Shown here one piece after another: positions 5,907-19,979 of a stretch of 22,171 nucleotides of DNA. The stretch comes from a virus, in IMG/VR virus record IMGVR_UViG_3300047550_004006, positions 1 through 22,171 of that record. The stretch is one strand, 5' to 3'. Numbering within the stretch: the stretch's first letter is position 1; the number at the start of each line of letters is the position of its first letter. The notes under the pieces were generated by a model. The model made no database searches and was not told the origin of the DNA. It saw nothing but the letters and a program-made list of their open reading frames with translations. The position numbers and the translations under genes were made by a program.

Positions 5907-6357
5907 CAAGTATACTGCAAAAGTTGTTAAAGATCCTGAAACGGGTGACTCTCTCTTAGAGTTTGATCAAAAGTTTGTTGAAGAACAGGATTGGAGAGTG
6001 GGTGACACTATTAAATGGAATATCACCGATAAGGAAGTAACCATGACTAATGTTGATGCTATAGCAAGAAAAGAAACCGATTATTATCTTGTTGAAACAA
6101 TTAGCATATTCCGTATGAGGTACGTTGTCAAAGCAAAGAGTGCAGAGCATGCTTCTGATGAAGTGGTGATGAATTCTAGTAATACACAGTTTAAAGAGTT
6201 TTCCCAACACCACATAGATGAATCAATTTCATCTACTAGAAAAATGACTAGAGAGGAAATACTAGAGCTATGCAATCAGGATAATGATTACCTTACGTCT
6301 TGGAGTGACGAACAAAAGCTAAAGAATCTTACCAATACTATTGATTATGAAGTATGA
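5890..6357 (+). CDS. Hypothetical protein with AbrB/MazE-like N-terminus
   Basis: A 155-aa protein. The first ~50 residues, SNKYTAKVVKDPETGDSLLEFDQKFVEEQDWRVGDT in outline, resemble the swapped-hairpin AbrB/SpoVT layout: strand, D-P-x-T-G-D turn, hydrophobic strand, then W-x-V-G-D-x-I-x-W. That fold usually binds DNA or acts as an antitoxin-like dimer. A middle segment DYYLVETISIFRMRYVVKAKSAEHASDEVV has a strand-helix pattern, and the C-terminal third is acidic and helical. The ATG at 5890 is used instead of the TTG just before it. It overlaps the upstream gene by 17 nt and dadA by 11 nt. No toxin partner is visible, so it is probably a phage regulator or replisome-associated protein; the function is unknown. 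Confidence 0.6.
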   Translation: MKHLSNKYTAKVVKDPETGDSLLEFDQKFVEEQDWRVGDTIKWNITDKEVTMTNVDAIARKETDYYLVETISIFRMRYVVKAKSAEHASDEVVMNSSNTQFKEFSQHHIDESISSTRKMTREEILELCNQDNDYLTSWSDEQKLKNLTNTIDYEV

Positions 6358-7561
6358 TGTCATAGTAATAGGCGGTGGTGTAATTGGAGTAACCACCGCC
6401 TATTATTTGTGGAAAAAAGGACTTGAGGTCGCTGTTATCGAAAGGAACGATCTTTGTTCAGAAGAAACATCGTTTGGTAACGGTGGTCAGATATCAGTAT
6501 CTCATGCTGAGCCTTGGGCTCATCCTGGTGCTCAGTTTCAAGTTGCCAAATGGTTGATCAGCAAAGACAGTCCTTTGTACTTTAAACCACAATGGGATCT
6601 TCATCAACTTAAGTGGATGTGGGAATGGTTAAAAAATTGTAATCGTTCTAAATGTGAATATAACACTGCTTCGTTGACTACACAAGCGCTTGATTCATTA
6701 ATTGAGTTGAATAAGGTAGTTAAAGATACTAAAATTAAGTATGATAGACTTAAGAAAGGTATCATTCATTTTTATACTGATAGTCATGAGTATGAAAATG
6801 GTTTAGAGGCCGCTAAAGTCATGAGGTTTTATGGACTCAGTATAGAAGAAGTATCTAGAGCATCTATAGTGGAACTAGAACCTTCTTTGGCTGGTTGTGA
6901 TAGAATCTTAGGCGGAACTTACGCTCCAAACGATGAATCGGGTGATTGTAACCTTTTTACTAAGAACCTTGCTAATTGGCTTGAATCTAATGGTGTACGA
7001 TTTTTCTATGATACTGTAGCAATTGCTCAGAAAGATAATTCTCTTGAATGTAGGATGTATGTTTCGAATCATGAAGCTCGATCATTTGGATTGGAAGCTA
7101 AACAGTTTGTGATAGCAATGGGTTGCTATAGTTATCCTTTTGTAAAGATAAACTATGGTAAAGAGCTTCTGATATATCCAGCAAAAGGTAGTTCGGTAAC
7201 CGTTCCGATTATCGACCCATCCAAAGTGACTACTATAAGTCTTACAGATGATGAAAACAAAATTGTATACTCTCGCCTTGGTAATCGTCTCCGTATTGCA
7301 GGTACTGCTGAGCTTGCTGGATGGGATCCTGACGTTAACATTGGACGTTGTAAAGTGGTTGAACAACATGCTAGACGTTTGTTCCCAGAAGGTTGTGACT
7401 GGTCGAAATCGATGTATTGGTCAGGACTCAGACCAACAACCCCATCAAACCTCCCATATGTGGAAAGATTAAATGAAAATGTTGTCCTTAATACTGGACA
7501 TGGAACATTGGGTTGGACTCTTGCTTGTGGATCAGCTTTCAAGGTTTCAAAACTTATATGA
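6347..7561 (+). CDS. dadA: D-amino acid dehydrogenase, small subunit type (DadA)
   Basis: FAD-dependent oxidoreductase that deaminates D-amino acids (D-alanine in bacteria) to 2-oxo acids and passes electrons to the quinone pool at the inner membrane. The 404-aa protein has the FAD motif VIVIGGGVIGVTTAYYL from residue 5, with Glu at the end of the second strand (VIER). Following the family it has SFGNGGQISVSHAEPWAHPG, QLKWMWEWLKNC, PNDESGDCNLFTKNLANWL, YWSGLRPTTPSNLPYV and a closing NTGHGTLGWTLACGS. These closely match bacterial DadA from end to end; the protein ends about 25-30 residues early compared with the ~432-aa E. coli enzyme. The ATG at 6347 overlaps the previous gene by 11 nt, and the TGA overlaps the gp62 ATG. 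A metabolic gene inside the clamp-loader operon is unusual and looks host-derived. Confidence 0.9.
   Translation: MKYDVIVIGGGVIGVTTAYYLWKKGLEVAVIERNDLCSEETSFGNGGQISVSHAEPWAHPGAQFQVAKWLISKDSPLYFKPQWDLHQLKWMWEWLKNCNRSKCEYNTASLTTQALDSLIELNKVVKDTKIKYDRLKKGIIHFYTDSHEYENGLEAAKVMRFYGLSIEEVSRASIVELEPSLAGCDRILGGTYAPNDESGDCNLFTKNLANWLESNGVRFFYDTVAIAQKDNSLECRMYVSNHEARSFGLEAKQFVIAMGCYSYPFVKINYGKELLIYPAKGSSVTVPIIDPSKVTTISLTDDENKIVYSRLGNRLRIAGTAELAGWDPDVNIGRCKVVEQHARRLFPEGCDWSKSMYWSGLRPTTPSNLPYVERLNENVVLNTGHGTLGWTLACGSAFKVSKLI
6366..6405 (+). promoter_or_regulatory. Perfect 14-bp hairpin at the start of dadA
   Basis: TAATAGGCGGTGGT at 6366-6379 is exactly complementary to ACCACCGCCTATTA at 6392-6405, leaving a 12-nt loop. 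The left arm encodes part of the FAD-binding glycines and the right arm encodes TTAYY. The arm begins 19 nt after the A of the ATG. It needs G/C-rich codons (GGC, ACC, ACC, GCC) in an A/T-rich gene. There is no T-run, so it is not a terminator. A role in translation control or mRNA stability is inferred. Confidence 0.65.
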
Positions 7562-8771: not shown

Positions 8772-8943
8772 AGAAAAGTTGGATGTAGCTTTTATGTACC
8801 TTGATAAAATGATAGCAATTGGCCACTACGGTGATTGTAAATTTGAGTTGTTGTTTAATGACCAAGTCAGTACGTTTGGAAATGCAATGCAAGCATTTTC
8901 ATATGTTAATAGTATTATAAATACTAATGCTTTAGTGCGCTAG
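8743..8943 (+). CDS. Small hypothetical protein (66 aa)
   Basis: A protein of 66 residues starting MKLTHIYLNEEKLDVAFMYLDKMIAIG. It has a mixed alpha/beta pattern, acidic at first, with no transmembrane segment. I do not recognise a family. The start overlaps the dCMP deaminase end by 29 nt. A late-promoter box (TATAAATA, 8916-8923) lies inside its 3' end, and its TAG stop at 8941-8943 falls inside the first stem of the downstream RNA element, so translation of this gene could disturb that structure in read-through transcripts. Confidence 0.55.
   Translation: MKLTHIYLNEEKLDVAFMYLDKMIAIGHYGDCKFELLFNDQVSTFGNAMQAFSYVNSIINTNALVR
8916..8923 (+). promoter_or_regulatory. T4-type late promoter
   Basis: A perfect TATAAATA, followed by CTAAT, closely matching the extended T4 late box TATAAATACTATT. 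With normal spacing the transcript would begin at G8929, about 10 nt before the pseudoknot stem. It reads towards the RNA element and hsp20. Confidence 0.7.
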
Positions 8944-9002
8944 CAGTCCGAGGTAAGGCTAGCAAAATATTCCTCGGGCCAACGCCTTTTGGGTTGGTTT
9001 TT
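8929..9002 (+). ncRNA. Putative late small RNA or leader: H-type pseudoknot plus terminator
   Basis: From the predicted late start (8929) to the T-run is about 74 nt. Stem 1: GCTAGC at 8939-8944 pairs with GCTAGC at 8958-8963. Stem 2: CCGAGG at 8948-8953, inside the stem 1 loop, pairs with CCTCGG at 8972-8977, extendable by a U-G pair. This is an H-type pseudoknot with loops of 3, 4 and 8 nt, the last being AAAATATT. An intrinsic terminator hairpin follows at once. It could be a stand-alone phage RNA, or an attenuator in front of hsp20, whose own RBS lies 19 nt beyond the T-run. I could not match it to a known riboswitch class. Structure is from base pairing only. Confidence 0.45.
8979..9002 (+). 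terminator. Rho-independent terminator before hsp20
   Basis: CCAAC at 8979-8983 pairs with GTTGG at 8993-8997, and CC at 8985-8986 pairs with GG at 8991-8992 past a one-base bulge, with a TTTT loop. A T-run follows at 8998-9002. It ends the regA-cd operon, and any late transcript from 8929. Confidence 0.7.
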
Positions 9003-9032
9003 AACATTTACTCGCTTAATAAGGAGAACTTT

Positions 9033-9509
9033 ATGACGTATCTTACGCAATTACCTTCTGTGTTTAAAGATTTTGACAAGTATTTTGTAGGATTTGATGA
9101 TTCTTACAACAAACTTACAAAACTTCACGATGATATTACTAAACACATTCCAAACTACCCTCCATACAATATCCGTAAAGTAGATTCCAACAAATATGTT
9201 ATTGAGCTCGCTATTGCAGGATTCTCTACTCAAGATGTTGAAATTACTTTAGAAGATAATAAACTTATCATTTCTGGTAAAGCTCAGGATGATAACGAAA
9301 ACTTCTTGTTCAAGGGTATCGCTAATCGTGCATTTACAAGAACATTTGCAATCGATGATAATATTGAGATCAACGATGCAGCTATGTTGAATGGAATGCT
9401 GCGAATTGCTCTAGAAAGAATTATCCCAGAGCATAAAAAGCCAAAAAAAATTGAAGTTAAGGAAGCTGGTAAATCTTCTAAAAAAGAATTACTAGTTGAG
9501 GATAAGTGA
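9033..9509 (+). CDS. hsp20: Hsp20 / alpha-crystallin small heat shock protein
   Basis: An ATP-independent holdase chaperone of 158 aa. The alpha-crystallin domain runs from about residue 48: YNIRKVDSNKYVIELAIAGFSTQDVEITLEDNKLIIS in outline, then a loop and FTRTFAIDDNIEINDAAMLNGMLRIALER, ending in a basic tail with KKIEVK that resembles the I-x-I/V oligomerisation motif. Start at 9033 is chosen because AAGGAG at 9021-9026 precedes it; the upstream GTG at 8994 lies within the terminator. Hsp20 genes are widespread in T4-like cyanophages, where they may help virion assembly or protect host proteins. It follows the terminator and pseudoknot, so it either has a promoter in the short gap or depends on read-through. 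Confidence 0.93.
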   Translation: MTYLTQLPSVFKDFDKYFVGFDDSYNKLTKLHDDITKHIPNYPPYNIRKVDSNKYVIELAIAGFSTQDVEITLEDNKLIISGKAQDDNENFLFKGIANRAFTRTFAIDDNIEINDAAMLNGMLRIALERIIPEHKKPKKIEVKEAGKSSKKELLVEDK

Positions 9510-9655
9510 TTTCGGTTTTATTTGCAAAACTTAAAGACTTTGTGAGTAGGTGCTCTAACTCCAAAAGAGATGTAGAGCACTACCTTTCACAATCTGTAGA
9601 CCGTGCAGATTTTGAACGCAGAGAACAGAAACTCAAGTACAAAGGATACCTATGA
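9506..9655 (+). CDS. DUF3563-like small protein (49 aa)
   Basis: A short gene starting with GTG at 9506 that overlaps the hsp20 stop, with TTGAGG about 9 nt upstream. The protein begins MISVLFAKLKDFVSR and contains RDVEHYLSQSVDRADFERREQKLK, which fits the DUF3563 pattern (D-x-YL-x-Q-x-x-D-x-x-D-x-E-R-R). Such proteins of about 45-50 aa are frequent in T4-like marine phages and have no known function. It runs into the next tiny gene by an ATGA overlap. Confidence 0.6.
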   Translation: MISVLFAKLKDFVSRCSNSKRDVEHYLSQSVDRADFERREQKLKYKGYL

Positions 9656-9759
9656 TATTTTTTACCACTATTTGGAGATTCCTCGAAGCTATGGCTGAAG
9701 GTCGTAGAATGAGAGTTGAAAAGTCAGTACAGGAATATATTAGAAACCAAAGGATTTAA
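9652..9759 (+). CDS. Very small basic protein (35 aa)
   Basis: ATG at 9652 overlaps the previous stop (ATGA) and is preceded by AAAGGA at 9641-9646. The product starts MIFFTTIWRFLEAMAEGRRMRVEK and ends in a basic helix (YIRNQRI). It has an amphipathic, aromatic N-terminus. No family recognised. The tight overlap on one side, and the next start only 2 nt after its stop with AAAGGA inside its 3' end, support real translation. Confidence 0.4.
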   Translation: MIFFTTIWRFLEAMAEGRRMRVEKSVQEYIRNQRI

Positions 9760-9760
9760 A

Positions 9761-10060
9761 ATGAATAATATATTATGTTTACAATTAGTAAATGGCATGG
9801 AATTAATGGGTAAGTTGGATAAAGAAAATGAAAATAGTATTTCTTTAAAAGACGTAGCCCAAATAGCCACCATACCAAATCAAGCTGGTCAAATGAGTGT
9901 AGGATTGTTTCCTTGGTTACCATATGCCGAAAAAAGTGAGTTTCAAATACAAAATCATAATATAGTAGTTAAATTTATTCCTGGTTTAGATATGGTTAAC
10001 AATTATAATAAATTTTTTGGGTCTGGTATTCAAATTGCTTCAGCTTCTGCTTTAAGGTGA
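9761..10060 (+). CDS. Possible Sm/Hfq-like phage protein
   Basis: A 99-aa protein starting MNNILCLQLVNGMELMGKL. The opening strand, L-V-N-G-x-E-L-x-G turn and second strand (ENSISLKDVAQI) resemble the Sm1 motif of Sm/Hfq-like proteins. After a Pro-rich loop (GLFPWLPYAE), NHNIVVKFIPGLDMVNNYNKFFG could be the Sm2-like strand with a C-terminal helix. Such proteins are found in marine T4-like phages and may bind RNA; here that is inferred from pattern only. ATG 9761 follows AAAGGA at 9749-9754; an in-frame start 45 nt upstream lies in the previous gene. The gene is distinctly A/T-rich. Confidence 0.45.
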   Translation: MNNILCLQLVNGMELMGKLDKENENSISLKDVAQIATIPNQAGQMSVGLFPWLPYAEKSEFQIQNHNIVVKFIPGLDMVNNYNKFFGSGIQIASASALR

Positions 10061-10063
10061 AAT

Positions 10064-10097
10064 CCTAAATAGGGGCATACTCTTTAGAGGAGCCCCT
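10064..10097 (+). promoter_or_regulatory. RBS-hiding hairpin with late-promoter-like box before the endolysin
   Basis: AGGGGC at 10071-10076 pairs with GCCCCT at 10092-10097, enclosing the ribosome site AGAGGAG at 10086-10092; inner CTCT/AGAG can also pair. Just before it is CCTAAATA at 10064-10071, one mismatch from the NATAAATA late box. A late transcript from there would start near 10077 and lack the 5' arm, freeing the ribosome site. T4 lysozyme gene e uses exactly this logic. Confidence 0.5.
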
Positions 10098-10098
10098 A

Positions 10099-10716
10099 AT
10101 GTATTCTTTAGAATTATTACAGAAATTATTTCCCAAAACAAAGGCTGATGTACTGAATCGATACGTTGAACCTTTGAATCAAGCAGCTGGAATGTACTAT
10201 ATTTTAGACACAACAACAAGAGCTGCTGCATTTATAGCACAAGTAGGGCACGAATCAGGTGGATTCAATTTTGTTAAAGAGAATCTTAACTATTCTGCAG
10301 ATGGATTGCTAAAAGTATTTCCCAAATATTTTCCAAACAGGCAGTTAGCAGAACAATATCAAAGAAATCCTCAAATGATTGCCAATCGTGTTTATGGTGG
10401 TCGTATGGGAAATGGACCTGAAACTACTGGAGAAGGTTATAAATTTTGTGGACGTGGTTTGATCCAATTAACTGGTAAGAACAACTATCAAAGAATGGCA
10501 ACTGACTTTCAATGTTCACTTGATGAATGTGTTGCTTACCTTGAAACCCCAACAGGAGCTTGTTATAGTGCTGCTTGGTTTTGGGATGTTAATTTGTTGA
10601 ATGACCTTTGTGATAAAGGTGATTTTGTTACTTTGACTAAAAGGATTAATGGTGGAACAATAGGTCTTCAAGATCGTATGCACCACTATCAACTTGCACT
10701 TCAATTAATGGGCTAG
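10099..10716 (+). CDS. GH19 chitinase-type endolysin
   Basis: Peptidoglycan-cleaving lysin of glycoside hydrolase family 19, 205 aa, covering the catalytic domain only. The first catalytic Glu is E52 in FIAQVGHESGGF, the second E61 in NFVKENLNYS. Further landmarks are GLLKVFPKYFP, IANRVYGGRMGNG and the signature KFCGRGLIQLTGKNNY at about 115-130. The end GGTIGLQDRMHHYQLALQ is typical of phage members. No signal peptide is visible, so a holin (not in this window) or other route must export it. The leader can form a hairpin over the ribosome site, suggesting it is kept silent early. It stands alone between the Sm-like gene and gp43. Confidence 0.92.
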   Translation: MYSLELLQKLFPKTKADVLNRYVEPLNQAAGMYYILDTTTRAAAFIAQVGHESGGFNFVKENLNYSADGLLKVFPKYFPNRQLAEQYQRNPQMIANRVYGGRMGNGPETTGEGYKFCGRGLIQLTGKNNYQRMATDFQCSLDECVAYLETPTGACYSAAWFWDVNLLNDLCDKGDFVTLTKRINGGTIGLQDRMHHYQLALQLMG

Positions 10717-10766: not shown

Positions 10767-13358
10767 ATGAACTTTTACACTAATATCCACATCCGTGGCA
10801 ACGAAATATTACTTAGGGGATATGAAGCTGGAGAAAAAATCCAGGTTTCTGTTCCCTACAAACCTTATTTGTTTGTAACGTCACATGACAACAACACACC
10901 ATACAGATCACTGAAAGGTGTTCCTGTTAAGAAGTTGGACTTTGAATCAATTAGAGATGCGCGTGAGTTTGTTACAAAGTATAAAGAAGTAGAAAACTTT
11001 TCTATATTTGGTTCAACAAACTATGTGTATACTTTTATCAACGATCGATACAAGGGAGAGATAAAGTATGACCCGTCAAAGATTTCAGTTGTCACAATCG
11101 ATATCGAGGTCTCGTCGGAGGGAGGCTTTCCAAACATTGAACAAGCTGACAAACCAGTTACAGCCATTACTTTATCAAAAAACGGACACATGGTCGTACT
11201 CGGCTTGTTCGAATACGAACCCGAGCAGCAAAATGTAACATACATGCATTGTAATAACGAGAAGGATCTATTAGAAAGATTCATTCAAGTTTGGCGTTCA
11301 AAACAATTCAATCCAGATATCATTACAGGATGGAACGTTGAATTCTTTGATATGCCATACATCGTTAATCGGGTAAGACGTGTTCTTGGTGATTATAGTG
11401 TTAAGAGACTTTCTCCTTGGGAACTGATGTCTTCTCGAGAGTTTGAAATCAATGGTAAGCAAATAGTGTTAGAACAACCAGTCGGTATTACTGTTCTTGA
11501 TTACCTAGGTTTGTATAGAAAGTTCTCATTTTCACAGCAAGAGAGTTATAAACTAGACCATATCGCATTCATTGAACTTGGAGAAAGAAAACTTGACTTC
11601 ATTGCATTGGGTTATGAGACTCTTGATGAGTTTTATAAGAAAGACTATCGTAATTACATCAATTATAATATCCGAGATGTTGAACTTGTTGATCGTTTGG
11701 ATGCTAAGCTCAAGTTATTAGAACAAGTATTTGCATTGGCTTACGATGGCAAGGTAAACTTTATCGATACATTGACAACTGTAAGAATGTGGGATATGAT
11801 TATTCATAACCATTTACTTGAAAGAAATATTGTTGTTGAGAATCCCAAGATCACTGAAAAGCAGAGACAGATTGAAGGAGCATATGTCAAAGATCCTAAA
11901 CCAGGAATGTATGATTGGGTGGTATCATTTGACTTGAATAGTTTGTATCCTCATTTAATCATGCAATACAACATCAGTCCAGAAACATTAGCTGGACAAT
12001 GTATGAAGTTTGCAAATAAAGAACGGTTTGATGATTTTGGTAAACTTATAGATTACTCAGTCACAGATTCGATTACTATGTTTATAGAAGACAAAGCTCT
12101 CGATGACATGTCGATCAGAAACCAGTTGGTAGAGCAGAATGTCACTATGACACCTACTGGATGTATGTTCGATCGTGATTATCAAGGTTTCTTACCTAAG
12201 CTGATGGAAACGATGTACAACGATCGTTCTGAATGGAAAAAAAGAATGATCGATGCAAAGAAGAAGTATGAGATAAACCCTACAGAGGAGTTGCGGAACG
12301 AAATTGCAAGATGTCATAATATGCAGCTTGCAAAAAAGATCCAGCTAAACAGTGCTTATGGTGCTCTATCTAATGTTTATTTTCGTTGGTTTGATCCTCG
12401 TCTTGCTGAGTCAATTACTAAAGCAGGTCAATTATCCATCAGATGGATGGAAAAAAAGATTAATGAATATCTTAATAAATTATTCAAATCAACTGGTGAG
12501 GATTATGTCATTGCCTGTGATACTGACTCGATGTATATTAGGCTTGGACCATTGGTCGAGTCTATTTACAAGGACCAGAAAGATAATGATAAGATTGTCA
12601 AATTCCTTGATAAGGTTTGTGAAGATAAGCTAGAACCGTTTATTGATAAATGCTATGACGAGCTTGCATTGTATGTCAATGCTTTCGATCAGAAAATGAA
12701 AATGAAGCGTGAAGCGATTGCAAACAAAGGAATATGGACAGCAAAGAAACATTATATTCTCAATGTCTATAACTTAGAAGGAGTTCAATATAAAGAACCA
12801 AAGTTAAAGATACAAGGGATTGAGGCAGTAAGAAGTTCTACTCCATCAGCATGCAGAGAGTATATCAAAGACGCTCTGAAAATTATTATGAGTAGTACAG
12901 AAGAAGATCTTGTAAGATTTATAGATTCCAAACGAGTAGAATTTAAATCTAAGCCGTTTGAAGAGATCGCGTTTCCTCGTAGTGTCAAAGATATGAATAA
13001 GTATTACGACTCTAAAGCTGGTTATAGAAAGATTTCTAAAAGTGGCGTACCTATCCATGTTCGTGCTGCATTGTTATATAACCATCTTCTGAAAAAGAAG
13101 CAGCTAGATACTATTCTTAACCCGATCTATGAAGGTGACAAGATCAAGTTTGCTTACATGATGATCCCTAATCCAATCCATGAGAATGTCTTTGCAACTA
13201 CTGGTTCATTACCAAAACAGTTTGGATTGGACAAGTACATAGATTATGATACTCAGTTTGATAAAGCATTTGTGGAACCAATCAAAACAATAGTTAATGT
13301 CATGGGATGGAGAACAGAACGTGCAAGCTCCACGCTTGATGACTTTTTCGGAGATTAA
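10767..13358 (+). CDS. 43: Family B DNA polymerase gp43
   Basis: Replicative polymerase with 3'-5' exonuclease, 863 aa (T4: 898). Exo I is TIDIEVSSEGGFP with D112 and E114, Exo II lies around ITGWNVEFFDMPYI, and Exo III around YNIRDVELVDRL. Polymerase motif A is DLNSLYPHLIM starting at D389. Motif B KKIQLNSAYGALSN lies near 520-533, and motif C CDTDSMY with D585 and D587. The C-terminal STLDDFFGD matches the clamp-binding tail of T4 gp43. The gene is intact and uninterrupted, with no intein or split. It starts after GAGGTGAT and ends 1 nt before the next gene. Position next to uvsX and gp41 is usual in marine T4-like phages. Confidence 0.97.
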   Translation: MNFYTNIHIRGNEILLRGYEAGEKIQVSVPYKPYLFVTSHDNNTPYRSLKGVPVKKLDFESIRDAREFVTKYKEVENFSIFGSTNYVYTFINDRYKGEIKYDPSKISVVTIDIEVSSEGGFPNIEQADKPVTAITLSKNGHMVVLGLFEYEPEQQNVTYMHCNNEKDLLERFIQVWRSKQFNPDIITGWNVEFFDMPYIVNRVRRVLGDYSVKRLSPWELMSSREFEINGKQIVLEQPVGITVLDYLGLYRKFSFSQQESYKLDHIAFIELGERKLDFIALGYETLDEFYKKDYRNYINYNIRDVELVDRLDAKLKLLEQVFALAYDGKVNFIDTLTTVRMWDMIIHNHLLERNIVVENPKITEKQRQIEGAYVKDPKPGMYDWVVSFDLNSLYPHLIMQYNISPETLAGQCMKFANKERFDDFGKLIDYSVTDSITMFIEDKALDDMSIRNQLVEQNVTMTPTGCMFDRDYQGFLPKLMETMYNDRSEWKKRMIDAKKKYEINPTEELRNEIARCHNMQLAKKIQLNSAYGALSNVYFRWFDPRLAESITKAGQLSIRWMEKKINEYLNKLFKSTGEDYVIACDTDSMYIRLGPLVESIYKDQKDNDKIVKFLDKVCEDKLEPFIDKCYDELALYVNAFDQKMKMKREAIANKGIWTAKKHYILNVYNLEGVQYKEPKLKIQGIEAVRSSTPSACREYIKDALKIIMSSTEEDLVRFIDSKRVEFKSKPFEEIAFPRSVKDMNKYYDSKAGYRKISKSGVPIHVRAALLYNHLLKKKQLDTILNPIYEGDKIKFAYMMIPNPIHENVFATTGSLPKQFGLDKYIDYDTQFDKAFVEPIKTIVNVMGWRTERASSTLDDFFGD

Positions 13359-18574: not shown

Positions 18575-18653
<79 letters not shown>

Positions 18654-18866: not shown

Positions 18867-18882
18867 TAGGGATTTTTATTTC

Positions 18883-18890
18883 CATAAATA
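18883..18890 (+). promoter_or_regulatory. Late-promoter-like box CATAAATA
   Basis: CATAAATA differs from the T4 late box only in the first, variable position. The expected start near 18896 gives a leader of about 13 nt containing GGAG (18900-18903) before the ATG at 18909. It would drive the three large genes at the end of the window. Confidence 0.55.
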
Positions 18891-18908
18891 TTTCATCATG
18901 GAGTTTTT

Positions 18909-19979
18909 ATGGCAAATTCTAATCTGTATTCTGATTTTGGATCTTGGTTAAATAAATCTATTTCTAAGTACAACTATCAAGTTGCTCCTCTTGCTCCATC
19001 TGGAAAACCTGGTAAAGTTGTAAAATCCCTTAGAGAATACAGATTACAGCTAATAAACAAACAAAATGACACATCAGATCAACTTATTGATGGTTTAAAA
19101 ACAATTCTTTCTAAAAACAAAGAAATTTCTAAACTTTCCTTTAATACCATTTCTCCTAATAGCTCAAAATTTCCTAGTTACACATTTAAATACGATGGAC
19201 AAGAATTTGATATTATTGTAGCTAGAGGAGCAAACAAAGGTGAAAATTTTGAAGTATCTACCATTAAAGATTTAGCTTCTTTTTTTAAGACAAATAAAGG
19301 AAGTGACAATTATAAAAAACTTATCAACCAATTAAATGAAGCTTACAAACCTTTTTCTTCTGTTGAAATCATTAATGTAGAACAAAGAAAAGGTTCTACT
19401 AAAAAGGAAGGTATAGCTATTGAAAAATTGGGAGCTATAATTGGGGATATTGTTCTTACTGATATGTCAAAAAATAAATGGTATATTTCTTTGAAGGATG
19501 TTAACGGAGCTACATTCAGTAGCTATTCTGGTGCATCAACTTTATTTGATAGTGAAGGCACATTACAACCAAATTCTCCCGGAGCAGAGTTTTTAGAGGC
19601 TTTTGGTGTAGATTTAAACAGAGTTCAAGAAGGTTTTGATCAAAGAAAATATAAGAATTCCACTCCTCCTTTAAGAAAAAAAATTCCTGTAAAAAAATTA
19701 GATCAATCTAAAATTAAGCCTATTATGGAACGTGCTTGGGGAATGAATTATTTTTATGTAAGAAAACAATCCAATGGTTGGAAAGTATTTTGGATAGATA
19801 GAAATAAGTTAAACAAACTAATTTCAAACATTTCAATTCAAGATATTAAATATCCTAGTACTTCATCAAAGCAAATATCAATTTTGTTTGGAAATAGTGA
19901 GCAAGACTATCTTATAGAAATGAGGAACTCTAAAGCAGGTGAATATCCAAACGATGTTAAAATTAAAGTAAGACCGTAA
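18909..19979 (+). CDS. Unknown 356-aa late gene; nuclease-like fold possible
   Basis: A basic, A/T-rich gene product starting MANSNLYSDFGSWLNKSISKYNYQVAPLAPSGKPGK. No clear family is recognised. The middle has YTFKYDGQEFDIIVARGAN and GDIVLTDMSKNKWYISLKDVNGATFSSYSGAS. The acidic D followed by W-x-I-S-L-K-D recalls the D...E-x-K-like core of restriction-type nucleases acting on DNA, but this is weak. The C-terminal region has a beta-rich NYFYVRKQSNGWKVFWIDR section. There is no signal peptide or membrane helix. It has a good RBS (GGAG), a late box upstream, and its stop overlaps the next start (TAATG), so the two genes are co-expressed late. Confidence 0.6.
   Translation: MANSNLYSDFGSWLNKSISKYNYQVAPLAPSGKPGKVVKSLREYRLQLINKQNDTSDQLIDGLKTILSKNKEISKLSFNTISPNSSKFPSYTFKYDGQEFDIIVARGANKGENFEVSTIKDLASFFKTNKGSDNYKKLINQLNEAYKPFSSVEIINVEQRKGSTKKEGIAIEKLGAIIGDIVLTDMSKNKWYISLKDVNGATFSSYSGASTLFDSEGTLQPNSPGAEFLEAFGVDLNRVQEGFDQRKYKNSTPPLRKKIPVKKLDQSKIKPIMERAWGMNYFYVRKQSNGWKVFWIDRNKLNKLISNISIQDIKYPSTSSKQISILFGNSEQDYLIEMRNSKAGEYPNDVKIKVRP

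Follow-up and report, generated by a model that had tools for sequence, protein, structure and literature searches.

A putative late-promoter-linked hairpin switch at a GH19-type endolysin gene in a freshwater relative of phage T4

In phage T4, a leader hairpin on the lysozyme gene e lowers synthesis of the enzyme about 100-fold, a block that is relieved on late transcripts, which lack the 5' portion (PMC3014915). Relief of an RBS hairpin by a late promoter has also been described for I-TevI, with similar arrangements at I-TevII, I-TevIII, segB and Aeh1 mobE (PMC3014915, PMC2988022). Together with T4 soc and 49, these are late genes on early polycistronic RNA that carry RBS hairpins, as proposed here, but no endolysin is among them, the set consisting of homing endonuclease genes and other T4 genes. 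Among phages that do have gene e, Aeh1, 44RR, 25 and 31 show no apparent structure of this kind, and many T4-like phages, cyanophages among them, have no gene e (PMC3014915). The gp55 late promoters are TATAAATA in T4, CTAAATA in Aeh1 and NATAAATA in S-PM2 (PMC1524935, PMC2984593, PMC2988020). T4 late RNA begins 6 nt past TATAAATA, which occupies -13 to -6; for the T4-like phage Aeh1 the late consensus is predicted to be CTAAATA, placed at -12, and for T4 it is TATAAATA (PMC1524935).

Here we describe a leader of comparable design in a 22,171-nucleotide stretch of viral DNA (the window), whose source appears to be a freshwater relative of T4 that apparently silences its lysin early by means of an RBS-hiding hairpin. 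The main genes of the window all lie on the + strand, and the set comprises T4-type gp45, gp44, gp62, RegA, Hsp20, a phrog_527 gene, the lysin, gp43, UvsX and gp41; the nearest polymerases in the phage collection belong to Synechococcus phages, at about 50% identity. The lysin is co-directional with the surrounding replication genes, an order that would place a late gene downstream of early genes, and in several relatives (for example, L091-L093 and L142) phrog_527 is followed directly by gp43. A terminator scan found none between the phrog_527 gene and the lysin, and early RNA should therefore cross the lysin. The first-pass annotation had placed the enzyme in GH19, a family different from that of T4 lysozyme, in agreement with its match to endolysin family phrog_181 and to solved endolysins and with the lack of BLASTP similarity to T4 lysozyme (E=27). 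An Rfam search gave no match in 8880-10160 and, across the whole window, only a tRNA at 18575. Within the clamp-loader region, 6341-7561 encodes an FAD-dependent oxidoreductase that by eye resembles D-amino-acid dehydrogenase. The features of the lysin leader and its neighbors are as follows:

9761..10060, + strand: phrog_527 gene immediately 5' of the lysin (family match)
10064..10071, + strand: late-promoter-like CCTAAATA, gp55-type, at -13 to -6 (sequence; T4 and Aeh1 consensus, PMC1524935; core kept in L004)
10070..10076, + strand: left (5') arm UAGGGGC of the RBS hairpin (last 2 promoter bases and the next 5; ends at predicted -1)
10077, + strand: predicted late RNA start (+1), by the T4 rule of 6 nt past the motif's last base (PMC1524935)
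10086..10092, + strand: Shine-Dalgarno (SD) AGAGGAG, read from the sequence
10092..10098, + strand: right (3') arm GCCCCUA, between SD and AUG (sequence, folding)
10099..10716, + strand: GH19-type endolysin, 205 aa, phrog_181 (family match, solved endolysins)
10767..13358, + strand: T4-type DNA polymerase gp43, immediately 3' of the lysin (family match)

The sequence from 10060 to 10101, AAATCCTAAATAGGGGCATACTCTTTAGAGGAGCCCCTAATG, spans the promoter motif, hairpin, SD and start codon. The first-pass annotation had described AGAGGAG as enclosed by AGGGGC/GCCCCT, with a late-promoter-like motif ending on the first base of the left arm, and both points are borne out: AGGGGC occupies 10071-10076 and GCCCCT 10092-10097, and CCTAAATA ends at 10071. 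One further pair, U10070-A10098, makes the stem 7 bp and perfect (10070-10076/10092-10098), and the final two bases of CCTAAATA are common to the promoter motif and the left arm. The last G of the SD (10092) opens the right arm, the remaining SD bases lie in the loop, where folding allows a weak GAG-CTC pairing, and the endolysin ATG at 10099 stands immediately 3' of the right arm. The -13 to -6 placement and the Aeh1 consensus CTAAATA (PMC1524935) predict a start at 10077, one base past the left arm, which agrees with the earlier proposal that late RNA begins beyond it. Because this predicted start falls past the left arm, late RNA should be unable to form the stem.

On the long RNA, the helix is predicted to sequester the RBS, at an opening cost of 11.5 kcal/mol compared with 5.3 kcal/mol on late RNA. 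With T4 gene e as a positive control, the script used for the window gave the same predicted pattern (16.3 early versus 1.9 late kcal/mol; 2/1600 shuffles), and with +1 predicted at 10077 the proposed analogy to gene e holds at the level of sequence. The 5.3 kcal/mol that the late form is predicted to retain, above T4's 1.9, weighs against a switch. As at gene e (PMC3014915), early RNA would cross a lysis gene, and the 5' arm of its RBS hairpin overlaps or adjoins the putative late promoter. The two loci differ in several respects: the window lysin is GH19-type and shows no BLASTP similarity to T4 lysozyme, its stem is unrelated in sequence, its gene slot adjoins gp43, its single putative promoter has C at -12, most of the SD stays outside the stem, which takes up the SD-AUG spacer instead, and the switch is a predicted one.

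We consider it probable that the window leader is a two-state translation switch of the gene e type, set by promoter choice, with the mechanism inferred as follows. Transcription from upstream early promoters would yield RNA that enters the lysin with the left arm included, and this long RNA would fold the hairpin, trapping the SD in a small loop and closing the spacer between SD and AUG in pairs that extend to the last base ahead of the AUG. The hairpin would block 30S binding, so that no lysin would be made while the replication genes are expressed. Later, the late sigma factor gp55, with the gp45 clamp, would take over RNA polymerase and make RNA from about 10077; such RNA, without the left arm, would expose AGAGGAG-CCCCUA-AUG and allow lysin to be made. 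Where RNA starts, whether early RNA reads through and how translation of the window lysin responds are our inferences; the analysis itself shows the sequences, the gene order, the difference in predicted energy, the conservation, and the fact that the architecture recurs in other T4-like phages.

The main alternative, which we regard as unlikely, is a chance stem, in which the complementarity between the C-rich spacer and a G-rich run that follows an AT-rich promoter-like string is coincidental, and conservation reflects only the promoter and SD. The 45-nt leader has an MFE of -15.5 kcal/mol, with 5/200 dinucleotide shuffles equally stable, and its RBS opening energy is the highest among the 26 gene starts listed in the window. 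When the bases around the TAAATA core were shuffled with the G's retained, the observed opening energy was reached in 42/1600 shuffles (p ~0.03), a frequency that leaves some room for chance. The leader is tied for 7th in perfect-stem strength among 512 gene starts (window plus relatives). Also on the side of chance, six genes lacking TAAATA equal or exceed its score, and one pair is broken in the relative L004. The leader hairpin on its own is suggestive, and the case therefore rests on comparison.

Among close relatives, the leader from -36 to -1 is unchanged in L002, L003 and L005, where lysin third codon positions are 0.86, 0.81 and 0.71 identical, respectively, and the upstream gene 0.50-0.60. 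At these third-position rates, 36 bases would stay unchanged with probabilities of 4e-3, 4e-4 and 5e-6, respectively. L004 has no phrog_527 gene, and the bases ahead of its promoter differ; it retains CTAAATA, the SD and the right arm, with a G-to-A change in the left arm and two 1-nt deletions; its hairpin has lost one pair and its AUG has shifted closer. Its predicted opening cost is 12.0 early and 3.8 late, a difference of 8.3 kcal/mol. The helix is thus identical in three relatives and one pair shorter in L004, and in L094 its place is taken by a stem that differs in sequence but follows the same design. A conserved RBS with unpaired flanks, which the first-pass annotation had named as evidence against its proposal, was not seen in these genomes: the leaders of L002, L003 and L005 match that of the window exactly, and the early/late difference is predicted to remain in L004. 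No compensatory changes were seen in the stem within the window lineage, which weighs against a switch. A scan with the DNA pattern TAAATANGGGC..GGAGCCC recovered the window's own lineage; the 16 other matches inspected were unrelated inverted repeats, many of them terminator-like, and were set aside.

The chance account fares less well against stems of the same design but unrelated sequence at GH19 lysins in several other T4-like lineages, which seem to have built such hairpins independently. In L094-L096, the corresponding slot holds a lysin of 63% identity with the leader GATTTCTCCTAAATA...AGGAGAAATCAATG, in which there is a 10-bp stem of unrelated sequence whose left arm ends in the promoter's CCT, paired with the SD; the predicted opening cost in L095 is 13.9 early versus 3.8 late kcal/mol (9/1600 shuffles). 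The L075 lysin is preceded by TATAAATA enclosed in GGCTCC/GGAGCC and lies beside gp41 (54% to the window's) in a phage that also carries UvsX and a T4-type polymerase. On the L075 contig, that polymerase gene (G021:C1:9811-13184) is apparently split into two open frames of 502 and 370 aa. The Vibrio phages pv27, phiTY18, phiKT1024, Va1 and SRILMA have AAATACTCTAAA/TTTGGAGTATTT, 12 pairs including one G-U, with the promoter's AAATA included in the left arm; shuffle tests gave 7/400 for pv27 and 6/400 for SRILMA, both of which encode a gp55 homologue. L213 has the stem TGGTTGC/GCAACCA. In L210, L475, L487 and L517, the AUG itself pairs with bases 5' of a TTAAATA, two pairs are changed on both sides, and 90.3% of cells are paired versus 24-46% with a slid partner; the shuffle control, limited to these four sequences, was not decisive (41-215/500). 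The TTAAATACTGCTATAA of this lineage also occurs in the upstream coding end of related phages, and its promoter role there is therefore less sure.

Other GH19 lysins do without the hairpin. G018 provides a natural control, since its lysin overlaps the end of the upstream gene, does not adjoin gp43 and has a leader with neither promoter motif nor hairpin. The GH19 lysin leaders of Mel-JY01, PhiW-14 and immuto likewise show neither motif nor hairpin, and the device is therefore not general to GH19 lysins. The LR756500 leader has the motif without a strong hairpin, and L060, L190/L192, L225, L240 and L254/L258 have TAAATA without a hairpin.

Association between motif and hairpin was measured in GH19 leaders from two lysin searches, counting TAAATA 12-62 nt upstream and setting an opening threshold of at least 10 kcal/mol. 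In this first set, 6/17 TAAATA leaders reached the threshold compared with 0/91 motif-free leaders, which argues against a chance stem; with the discovery lineage removed and lineages counted by eye, the figures were 4/10 versus 0/91 (Fisher 5e-5). A replication set, partly kin of L210, was weaker and gave 3/13 versus 1/32 (p 0.07) by the opening criterion and 4/13 versus 0/32 (p 0.005) by the early-late difference (ddG). Across all gene types, 16/80 for TAAATA compared with 38/340 for decoy hexamers (p 0.03) is a modest association, and we therefore do not assert a genome-wide claim for all late genes. Judged by this comparative sequence evidence, the window hairpin is beyond chance, and a lock of the gene e type has apparently evolved repeatedly for a non-homologous lysin.

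If CCTAAATA were inactive as a late promoter, the hairpin would always lower lysin translation, making it constitutively weak. CCTAAATA, a putative promoter, differs from the described gp55 promoters, carrying CC where T4 has TA at -13/-12; this weighs against a switch, and its contrast with the TATAAATA that precedes gp23 in the relatives G018 and G005 favors constitutive weakness. On the other hand, the predicted late consensus of Aeh1 is itself CTAAATA (PMC1524935), every copy has the motif directly against the left arm, and the CTAAATA core persists in L004 despite different upstream DNA, and we judge constitutive weak translation to be quite improbable. Like gp55 promoters elsewhere, the window motif has a TAAATA core about 6 nt ahead of the predicted start; gp45 is encoded in the window, and the relatives encode gp23 and gp55 (phrog_234; G005, G007, G012, G014, G016, G017 and G018). 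ATAAATA occurs 3 times on both strands of the window versus 9.5 expected in shuffles, always on the + strand and twice shortly upstream of genes, a scarcity that fits avoidance of stray late promoters. A transcription terminator or protein-binding DNA operator of the upstream operon is highly improbable: the inverted repeat does lie at the upstream gene's end, and T4 I-TevI binds such promoter-proximal sites (PMC2988022), but the arms in L094, L075 and pv27 are entirely different in sequence and spacing, and the terminator reading is rejected because the stem has no U-tract and is absent from the terminator scan.

The gene e-type reading of the lysin leader has a possible counterpart elsewhere in the window, at an ORF with the following features:

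18882..18888, + strand: left arm CCAUAAA of the second candidate switch, overlapping late-promoter-like CATAAATA at 18883-18890
18906..18912, + strand: right arm UUUAUGG, containing the AUG of ORF 18909 (folding)
18909..19979, + strand: ORF 18909, 356 aa, phrog_8438 (family match)

The predicted opening cost of this leader (CCATAAA/TTTATGG) is 14.6 early and 2.3 late (1/1600 shuffles). G018 has a homologous small upstream ORF, and the leader that follows it carries CATAAATA with a hairpin of its own (29/1600); G002 has a similar leader (55/1600), again with a different hairpin at CATAAATA and with upstream sequence that matches by eye; the positions of these two CATAAATA-hairpin genes apparently match that of ORF 18909.

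Further hairpins accompany such motifs. At 8916-9032 of the window, upstream of hsp20, TATAAATA is followed by the hairpin GCCAACGCC-TTTT-GGGTTGGTTTTT, which could be a terminator, an attenuator or a regulatory leader; promoter and hairpin recur with sequence changes in L365 and, shortened, in L004. L280 (G005) has at 8939-8981, at a head-tail adaptor gene (phrog_211), a 13-bp perfect stem ATAAAAATCTCCT/AGGAGATTTTTAT around CCTAAATA (0/1600 shuffles). A strong RBS hairpin with a stem including TATGGGGTC/GACCCCATA follows CCTAAATA at 681-712 of L099, on a gene directly preceding gp43; this gene differs from the window lysin but occupies the same slot.

These cases raise a broader idea, which we offer tentatively and with more doubt than conviction: late promoter motifs in T4-like phages may generally double as 5' arms, with promoter bases (CCT of CTCCTAAATA, or AAATA) pairing with the SD or AUG, and late genes in early operons, lysins above all, may repeatedly evolve such overlap with unrelated stems. 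The cases it would cover, with the same reservation, are the window lysin, ORF 18909, the G005 neck-like gene, L099, L094, L075 and the Vibrio phages.

In summary, although this kind of switch is itself known, our analysis adds the GH19 lysins of distant T4-like phages to its range and points to the T4 lysozyme switch as a solution that has recurred, not a quirk of close T4 relatives. The combination of TAAATA and an arm complementary to the RBS provides a signature by which late genes concealed in early operons can be searched for, and the cultured Vibrio phages that carry it offer testable systems. Our results suggest that, where a lysin lies among early genes, premature lysis is averted by a late promoter that overlaps the 5' arm of an RBS hairpin, the stems being new each time and the enzyme family a different one.
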